From NCBI RefSeq assembly GCF_008365275.1, contig NZ_CP043504.1, positions 1,550,001-1,614,000 of the forward strand: DNA of 64,000 nucleotides. The letters run 5' to 3'. Each line of letters begins with the position of its first letter. Within the stretch, counting starts at the first letter, position 1. Source of the stretch: Protaetiibacter larvae. Lineage in GTDB: Bacteria > Actinomycetota > Actinomycetes > Actinomycetales > Microbacteriaceae. Of the stretch, positions 21,159 to 22,601 are shown in pieces. The notes beneath the pieces were generated by a model. That model was given only the letters and a program-made list of their open reading frames with translations, was not told where the DNA came from and did no database searches. Position numbers and translations under genes: made by a program.

Positions 21159-21536
21159 CCGCACCCGCGCTCGCGCCGCCGCCCCAGCCCGCCGCCGCCT
21201 CCCGCCGCCTCCCAAATCAAGGAGTCGAGCATCCCAAATCAAGGAGTCGGTGTGACTGCTGTTGCGGATGGGGTGGAAGTAGTGAGTTTCTCGCTTCAGC
21301 TCCGTGAGATGGGTTGCGCCACTCCTTGATTTGGGAGCCGGGTCGGATTTGGGAGCCGGATCGGGCTCGGGAGCCGGATCGGATTCGGGAGCCGGATCGG
21401 CGGGGCGACTCGCGGACCAGGCCCGGCGGGACCTCCGGATGGCGTCCGATCCTCCCCAGGGGAGTCCGGTAGGCGAAGCGCACGATTCGGGCGCGGCGCG
21501 CGACGACGGCCCGGAGGCCGGCGAACACTGGCCCGG
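21159..21536. repeat. Gene-free 378-base stretch: left palindromic flank of the nuclease cassette
   Basis: Two direct copies of CCCAAATCAAGGAGTCG (21211-21227 and 21233-21249) are followed, 71 bases later, by one inverted copy (21321-21336), so 21232-21247 and 21321-21336 are perfect 16-base inverted repeats. An 18-base tandem array (21330-21401) follows directly. The same motif recurs on the other side of the nuclease gene at 22443-22569. I see no credible coding frame or terminator with a T-tract here. Confidence 0.85.
21330..21401 (+). repeat. 18-base tandem repeat, four units
   Basis: Four consecutive 18-base units with consensus TTYGGGAGCCGGATCGGA start at 21330, 21348, 21366 and 21384. 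The first begins inside the inverted CTCCTTGATTTGGGA copy, suggesting the array grew by slippage from the palindrome end. The unit length keeps a frame open (GSDLGA-like on the plus strand) but I do not believe it is translated. Confidence 0.9.
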
Positions 21537-22397
21537 GTGACCCGGCTTCAGGCAGCGATACGGCGCCGCGGCGGACTCGCGGCAACCCACGAGCTCCATC
21601 GCGACGGCTTCGGCCGCGAGGTGCTGCGCCGCGCGACCCGCACGGGCGAGATCCGCCGGATCCGGCAGGGCTGGTACATCCTCCCCGACACACCGTCCGC
21701 CGTGGCTGACTGCCTCCGTGTCGGTGGCCGCGCCACCTGCATCACGCTCATCGAACACCTCGGGCTCTGGGTGCACGCCCACGTTCGCGAGGTGCACGTC
21801 GCGGTGAGGCCGCACGCGTGCCAACTGCGTGACCCGCGCGACTACCGCCGACGCGGCCCGCAGCCCGATGCGGTGGTCCACTGGACGGATGCGGACGTGG
21901 ACGCGGTCGCCGACGGCAGCCGCATGCTCGTGTCCCTTCCGCAGGCGCTGCGTGAACTCGCGCTGTGCTGCGGCGCGGAGGCCGCGTTCGTCGCCGCCGA
22001 GTCGGCGATGGCCGCCGGCATGCTTCGCGCCGAGGAGTGGAGCTCGGTCTGCGACACCCTTCCCGCGGGGTTCGCCGTCCGGCTGCGCCCGGCCGGACCT
22101 CGGTCGGGAAGCATCACCGAGGCGGTTTTCCACTTTCGTTCACCCATGTTCGGCGTGCGTGTGAGGCAGCAGGTGCAGATCGGGCCGGATCGGGTCGACA
22201 ATCTGCTCGGCGACCGACTCATCATCGAACTCGACAGCCGCGAGTTCCACGAACGGGAGCGCGACTACGCGCGGGATGCGCGGCTGAACGCACGAGGATT
22301 CCGCATCCTGCGATTCTCGTACCAGCAGATCATGTTCGACTGGCCGCAGGTGGAGGCCGCCATTCGAGCGGCCATCGCCCGCGGCGACGCCAACTGA
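21537..22397 (+). CDS. AbiEi-like winged-helix / DUF559 PD-(D/E)xK nuclease-like protein
   Basis: A 286-residue protein. Residues about 8-52 form an AbiEi-type winged helix (GLAATHELHRDGFGREVL..IRRIRQGWYIL). Residues about 190-280 resemble DUF559/Vsr-like nucleases: E195, D221, E231-x-D233, H238 and the RDARLNARGFRILRF segment are the expected PD-(D/E)xK positions and all are present, so it could be active. GTG 21537 is the only reasonable start and has no clear ribosome binding site. Identical palindromic repeats flank both sides, and the gene interrupts thyX to dapA, indicating a transferred cassette. Target unknown. Confidence 0.82.
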   Translation: MTRLQAAIRRRGGLAATHELHRDGFGREVLRRATRTGEIRRIRQGWYILPDTPSAVADCLRVGGRATCITLIEHLGLWVHAHVREVHVAVRPHACQLRDPRDYRRRGPQPDAVVHWTDADVDAVADGSRMLVSLPQALRELALCCGAEAAFVAAESAMAAGMLRAEEWSSVCDTLPAGFAVRLRPAGPRSGSITEAVFHFRSPMFGVRVRQQVQIGPDRVDNLLGDRLIIELDSREFHERERDYARDARLNARGFRILRFSYQQIMFDWPQVEAAIRAAIARGDAN

Positions 22398-22442
22398 GCC
22401 CGGGCGCGCGGTGTCCCCGCCATCCCGCCGCCCCATCCGCCG

Positions 22443-22569
22443 TCCCAAATCAAGGAGTCGAGCAACCCAAATCAAGGAGCCGACGGGCAGGACACGCCAC
22501 TCGCGCCACTCCATCCCCGCCAGTAACGTCAACTCCTTGATTTGGGTTGCTCGACTCCTTGATTTGGGA
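22443..22569. repeat. Right palindromic flank of the nuclease cassette: perfect 37-base inverted repeat
   Basis: Bases 22443-22479 and 22533-22569 are perfect inverted repeats separated by 53 bases. Each arm contains two copies of CCCAAATCAAGGAG joined by TCGAGCAA. The arms match the repeats in the left flank (21210-21249) with the joiner TCGAGCA(T/A). It lies between the convergent nuclease and permease genes and could also terminate transcription. Confidence 0.9.
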
Positions 22570-22601
22570 CAGGGCAGGCGGGGAGAGCGTCCAAGCGAGG
22601 G

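Follow-up and report, generated by a model that had tools for sequence, protein, structure and literature searches.

What gives rise to REP-like palindromes, and what keeps them in genomes, is an unsettled question, and the locus described here raises it in a particular form. In Protaetiibacter larvae (Microbacteriaceae; genome G000, a single contig of 2,557,894 bp), a DUF559 nuclease gene stands between two palindromic elements, and one may ask what the enzyme and the repeats have to do with each other. The window, meaning the whole stretch of DNA analyzed, is the 64 kb from position 1,550,001 to position 1,614,000 of that genome. An original prediction, made from the letters of the window, described the gene and its repeats and read them together as a candidate mobile cassette.

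The gene itself is as predicted. Its product scores 38.7 bits against PF04480, above the curated Pfam cutoff of 20.6, and AlphaFold2 models the 286 residues with a pLDDT of 94.5 and a pTM of 0.90. The protein is an AbiEi-like part joined to a nuclease domain of the homing-endonuclease/Vsr type (Table 1). Residues 1 to 191 align, at a middling Z score, with an AbiEi structure of two domains, a winged helix and a C-terminal domain. The nuclease half has the fold and the catalytic residues of EDxHD/Vsr-like nucleases; the mapping of the residues is ours, and the name of the motif is taken from excerpts of PMC3943268. E195 and D221 never vary among 52 aligned sequences, and E231 and D233 show at least 90% conservation. 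The product of the gene is probably a DNA-cutting enzyme. The homing endonuclease I-Bth0305I is a structural neighbor, and mitoribosomal proteins and viral endonucleases also came up as fold matches. Of the profile libraries searched, PADLOC matched the protein to AbiEi models and, weakly, to Hhe, homing-endonuclease, and DpdF profiles; NCBIfam and PHROGs yielded nothing of use. G000 encodes five DUF559 genes in all. We note that a short DUF559-type frame in G004 (L129, 3229 to 3813) apparently lacks the nuclease end.

Table 1. Features of the nuclease gene and its flanking elements, in window coordinates
Feature	Position	Strand	Details
DUF559 nuclease gene	21537..22397	+	286 aa, GTG start
AbiEi-like half	21537..22109	+	residues 1-191; winged helix ~1-51
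DUF559/EDxHD-type nuclease domain	22104..22388	+	residues 190-284; E195, D221, E231, D233, H238, D243
Left palindromic element, 125 nt	21211..21335	.	units 21211-21227 (+), 21233-21249 (+), 21297-21313 (-, decayed), 21319-21335 (-)
Right palindromic element, 125 nt	22444..22568	.	units 22444-22460 (+), 22466-22482 (+), 22530-22546 (-), 22552-22568 (-)

The bracketing repeats are real, and a complete element lies on each flank. Both elements follow one plan: two 17-nt units at 22-nt steps, a loop of ~47 nt, and two inverted units. On the right, the inverted repeat is perfect, as had been described, but its arms measure 38 nt rather than 37 (spanning 22442 to 22570, with a 53-nt loop). On the left, the two direct units and one inverted unit of the earlier description are present, but they are not the whole element, as a fourth, decayed unit accompanies them. 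Both elements fold as single-stranded DNA far better than shuffled sequence does, the left at -34.5 kcal/mol (z -6.8) and the right at -55.9 kcal/mol (z -15.3). With up to three mismatches, CCCAAATCAAGGAGTCG has seven copies in the window, all within 21211 to 22568; shuffled windows average 0.08 copies, and none of 100 shuffles reached seven. Directly after the left element, an 18-nt tandem of GGGAGCCGGATCGG type (21333 to 21400, ~3 copies) resembles decayed copies of that element's last bases. Read by eye in an alignment (A1), the element loops appear to have a GTGTGACTGG...GGCGGATG-like sequence in common, in either orientation, and therefore the elements may have a direction that their arms hide.

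The original prediction noticed the repeats nowhere else in the window. This is right, but it holds only for the window, and the element is dispersed in the genome: the core 14-mer occurs 35 times in the 2.56 Mb of G000, in ~12 clusters, and a covariance model made with 14 of the elements recognizes full copies at 25 places, those 14 included. As 23 of the 25 places lie away from the window gene, the repeats are neither confined nor unique to it, and they do stand beside unrelated genes. Twelve places were examined with a crude gene caller; at 10 of them the element lies clear of any called gene, and at the remaining two it overlaps, by 22 and 40 nt, frames that resemble shadow frames. No window-type element lies near the other four DUF559 genes of G000. 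Among related genomes, G005 has 20 elements by this model and one further weak match, G006 has 14, G004 has 7, and G008 has one that is partial; the model finds none in G001, G002, G003, or G007. G006 carries its 14 elements, yet its nearest nuclease is only ~40% identical to the window protein. In G000, the gene for DNA polymerase III delta, located between a comEC-type gene and the ribosomal S20 gene, is bracketed by a pair of elements as well. The idea that a flanking pair is unique to DUF559 was rejected on this evidence, and one bracketing pair thus proves nothing; only the statistics of the family count.

Those statistics were obtained from the flanks of many DUF559 genes. Among 21 such genes scanned in the genus, many are flanked by other palindromes, for example, CAGAAATGCAGGAG, TCGAAAATGCAGGAG, and CGCAACTCAGGAG. 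Because the palindromes differ in sequence from gene to gene, we searched for the longest exact word, on either strand, common to the 350 nt left and the 350 nt right of each gene. A simple rule fixed the gene starts, and control genes came from a crude caller. The genus set (n = 25) comprised the 21 genes, many of them orthologues, and four other loci. Here, a word of at least 15 nt was found at 15 of 25 genes, including four of the five G000 genes, versus 3 of 325 shifted placements, and a word of at least 17 nt was found at 13 of 25 versus 0 of 325. A family sample from other genera was drawn as the best 60 rows outside G000 of a score-ordered list, with one dropped at a contig edge. Of these 59 genes, 24 have a word of 15 nt or longer common to both flanks, versus 3 of 504 shifted placements and none of 191 neighboring genes at the same loci (none of 40 with comparable intergenic flanks); Fisher's test gives p ~1e-17. 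Moreover, the same inverted pair of 9-mers, with a gap equal to within 1 nt, occurs on both flanks of 10/59 family and 8/21 genus genes, compared to 0/498 and 0/272 shifted placements, respectively. The original prediction had named two findings that would count against it, repeats next to unrelated genes and the gene without repeats in most relatives. Both were checked: repeats do stand beside unrelated genes, and 35 of the 59 family genes lack a shared word of 15 nt, but the excess over controls is far beyond chance. We conclude that the association of DUF559-type nuclease genes with flanking palindromic repeats is real, and a link first proposed for one gene is now statistical across the family. 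In a class sample of 28 of 29 loci outside G000 (L246 is of the same family and L256 of the same order), words of at least 16 nt occur at six loci, one of them from the same family, and 22 have none; several loci show equal unit spacing on both sides. None of 250 class-type shuffles reached 15 nt, a control in which flanks were partly misplaced at minus-strand loci. Thus, the link extends beyond the family, though in weaker form.

Groups of nucleases have repeat words of their own. The words vary from gene to gene, and across the 39 genes that have one, their resemblance tracks that of the proteins (Mantel p 0.0002 in a set of 32 genes thinned to below 55% identity and 0.0016 in one of 22 thinned to below 45%). 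Shared ancestry could account for part of this covariation. A gene from another genus (L183), 38% identical to the window protein, has CCCAAATCAAGG units too. The genus also carries the motif RAAATGCAGGAG, with 74 copies in G000, 73 in G004, 89 in G008, 47 in G005, 42 in G006, and 9 in the fragmented G003, and in all six of these genomes there is a DUF559 gene whose flanks share a word containing RAAATGCAGGA. G001, G002, and G007 have 25, 6, and 1 copies, respectively, with no DUF559 gene of RAAATGCAGGA type among the matches listed. Across 70 genomes of the family, RAAATGCAGGAG reaches at least 12 copies in four (G000, G060, G001, and G017) and 0 to 2 in the other 66. L208, alone among the 59 family genes, has GAAATGCAGGAG in its shared word, which was found before the copies were counted; its genome is G060, which has 74 copies. 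Of 25 listed inverted pairs in G060, 18 are equally spaced, including the two at the gene, five have the shorter spacing of the window's genus, and two are longer. G017 (12 copies) was inspected after the count; a DUF559 gene there is flanked by GAAATGCAGGA and was also described as flanked by CCTTCCGAAATGCAGGATCGC. In G060 (L267, 380 to 1160), GAAATGCAGGAG elements lie in tandem units of ~300 nt with a second repeat of GGTTGAGGAGCGCCCGAGCGCAGC...CGAAACC type.

Dispersal was also followed for six further words from the family. Scattered 9-kb loci held too little sequence for this purpose and were dropped in favor of 400, 200, and 200 kb of three genomes, in which flank words of up to 16 nt were sought with up to two mismatches. 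Three words proved to be dispersed in their own genomes, that of L194 with 14 matches, that of L168 with 8 (all with two mismatches), and that of L206 with 4; the reversed words had no matches, nor had the words themselves in the two other genomes. The other three gave no support, with 6 matches versus 5 in the control for L223, 1 for L202, and 0 for L225.

The elements also have a regular geometry. In three repeat families of the genus, the inverted GGA cores lie 55 to 57 nt apart where the inner units are intact (54 nt in one G001 pair); at the G060 gene the distance is 68 nt. The gap at the genes matches the one that dispersed copies read from that genome usually have. Outside the invariant core, compensatory changes preserve the stem (21 double-change cells versus 8.5 in shuffles, a count reached in 0/500). 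Within the window-type unit, CCCxyzTCANGGAG, the triplet xyz is specific to the genome: GAA in 26/39 units of G005, ATC in 26/38 of G006, and ATC in 37/98 and AAA in 35/98 of G000. Most sites shared between genomes differ accordingly. Homogenization within genomes would give this pattern, as would joint adaptation to a changing binder.

Taken together, the data lead us to lean toward a widespread pairing of repeat and nuclease, of which this locus is one member. On this view, the AbiEi-DUF559 nuclease is a resident passed on vertically, and the elements on both sides of its gene belong to a family of its own that it probably recognizes. Recognition is the stronger part of this reading and seems likely. 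That the nuclease also drives dispersal or homogenization of the elements is a proposal toward which the balance tips slightly. The results suggest a previously unrecognized partnership of enzyme and repeat, with differently worded repeats in other genera.

One might instead suppose that the protein is an AbiEi-type repressor or a nucleoid-type regulator, that the repeats are operators at its own gene and a small regulon, and that the nuclease fold is secondary. Excerpts of PMC7319586 describe AbiEi proteins that bind 23-bp inverted repeats in the promoter and regulate themselves through them, a length close to that of the 22-nt units here, and the AbiEi structure does align with residues 1 to 191 of the window protein, albeit with a middling Z score. 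Moreover, 15 of the 25 element sites in G000 share both flanks with an element site of G005, G006, or G004, and 10 are private; thus, either movement is slow or sites are kept by selection. Operators, however, would hardly be expected on both sides of the gene or just downstream of unrelated genes, as beside the comEC-type and polymerase III delta genes, nor is a regulon easily squared with a motif that has a single copy in one species of the genus and 89 in another. The conservation of the catalytic residues likewise speaks against a secondary nuclease. Unlike the AbiEi antitoxin of a type IV AbiE system, the window protein is fused to a nuclease and its two neighbors are, by Pfam, Thy1 (thyX) and AI-2E_transport, with no AbiEii (DUF1814) toxin gene beside it. 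We consider a purely regulatory role unlikely.

Alternatively, the repeats might be REP- or MITE-like elements moved by some other enzyme, with DUF559 genes as tolerated or preferred neighbors. Most element sites are indeed not beside DUF559 genes, and the bracketed polymerase III delta gene fits the same view. So does G001, where RAAATGCAGGAG has 25 copies, many in inverted pairs (L270 and L271), and no DUF559 gene is among the matches listed, an exception that is possibly a relic after gene loss. Mere tolerance, however, does not account for nuclease groups that have repeat words of their own covarying with the protein, for flank words that in several cases predict dispersed repeats in the same genome and not in others, or for the lack of a shared 15-nt word at all 191 neighboring genes of the family sample. 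Hitchhiking of this kind seems a poor prospect.

Transcription terminators or RNA-stabilizing hairpins, with an unrelated nuclease nearby, were considered as well. The elements are strong hairpins, mostly between genes, with the compensatory changes described above. However, the arms are constrained in primary sequence and the loop is near-fixed in length, no T-run was seen in the 14 element sequences, and no match of the elements to an Rfam family was found in the five sources searched. Terminators would also leave the bracketing and the cognate wording unexplained, and we regard them as very improbable.

Whether gene and repeats travel together, as the original prediction held, is best judged at the locus. 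The gene does lie between thyX and dapA, but to say that it interrupts this linkage is too simple, as the AI-2E transporter gene is also inside the interval and the interval varies within the genus. The closest homologue, ~65% identical, in G005 (which matches Protaetiibacter mangrovi), has the same neighbors, thyX and the AI-2E transporter gene, and the same elements on both sides. A second group of nucleases likewise keeps one locus: both flanks of its G000 gene (at 1307 kb) match G004, G005, G006, and G008 among the matches listed, and in G003 only one flank is comparable. Across nine genomes, five have DUF559 genes in the thyX-dapA interval, at three positions. We note that the interval (L110, L112 to L115, L117, L119, and L121) may hold two types of DUF559 gene, a phospholipase-D-type gene, another gene, or nothing. 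At the spot between thyX and the transporter gene, G002 has a 25-nt junction without a nuclease gene, G001, G004, and G008 have a phospholipase-D-type gene (by Pfam on the G001 copy), and G006 has a gene without a Pfam match. A clean empty site was rejected on account of these other genes, and no precise empty site, with or without a target duplication, was found in the interval in the nine genomes, nor was a second near-identical copy of the window-type gene. The complete elements on both sides, the three positions, and the G002 junction notwithstanding, a composite unit of gene plus flanking repeats is not supported, because the gene stays at one locus across species, and we think it highly improbable. 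The repeats disperse; the gene does not.

How might a resident nuclease act on its own repeats? We speculate that the AbiEi-like half binds the ~22-nt units and that two molecules sit on inverted units, with the GGA cores ~55 to 57 nt apart in the genus. The EDxHD/Vsr-type half would then nick or cut the element, and repair or copying would homogenize elements within the genome and occasionally place new ones. The nuclease gene would stay put while the elements scatter, mostly between genes. The gap of 55 to 57 nt is close to the target of nearly 60 bp on which I-Bth0305I dimerizes, according to excerpts of PMC3943268. The window system differs from that homing endonuclease in that the other half of the protein is AbiEi-like, the gene lies between two complete elements without interrupting its presumed target, and presumed targets in G000 are many. 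The AbiEi-like half and the flanking repeats likewise set it apart from Vsr mismatch endonucleases and stand-alone DUF559 proteins. Like MITEs, the elements are short, noncoding, palindromic, and dispersed, with inverted arms; no target-site duplication is evident by eye in 14 elements, and G000 has no match to the PF01797 transposase.

The closest parallel is the REPIN/RAYT system, as the original prediction had sensed, and the family-wide statistics support the resemblance. In the excerpted accounts of PMC3116915 and PMC3733652, the palindromes are short, paired in inverted orientation, and largely intergenic, a resident gene is flanked by its own class of repeat, genomes have several pairs of gene and repeat, the gene is inherited vertically, and coevolution of repeat and protein is proposed. 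The DUF559 system shares the resident gene flanked by its own repeat class, the several pairs per genome, the vertical inheritance, the proposed coevolution, and the mostly intergenic palindromes, and its repeats are dispersed as inverted pairs, with three of the six further words behaving likewise. The enzymes differ, as a RAYT is an HUH/Y1 transposase and the protein here is an AbiEi-like DUF559 nuclease. A RAYT in G000 was rejected for want of a PF01797 match, and 5 of 14 in a control set did match that profile. The window elements are also longer (125 nt), have a loop of ~50 nt, and show no GTAG tag at the ends of their consensus. The window nuclease and its repeats are thus best read as working like a REPIN/RAYT pair built on an unrelated enzyme. 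In excerpts of PMC3733652, RAYTs are candidate enzymes for one large class of REP, and REPs of the CGTC type are described as having no transposase of their own. None of the titles and abstract openings listed from PubMed Central reports a link between DUF559 and repeats.

AbiEi-DUF559 proteins could be a second class of enzymes, outside the HUH type and convergent with RAYTs, by which REP-like palindromes are created, spread, and homogenized. Each would read its own ~22-nt unit and act as a dimer across a near-fixed gap of ~55 nt, and we hold this broader proposal in even balance. If it is true, it would explain how palindromic repeat families came about in Actinomycetes that lack a transposase. 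A different nuclease superfamily with cognate repeats would be a second, testable solution to the origin of REP-like palindromes, and its many natural pairs of nuclease and target word would be material for studies of specificity. Ultimately, DUF559, labeled a protein of unknown function, would gain a candidate biological role.
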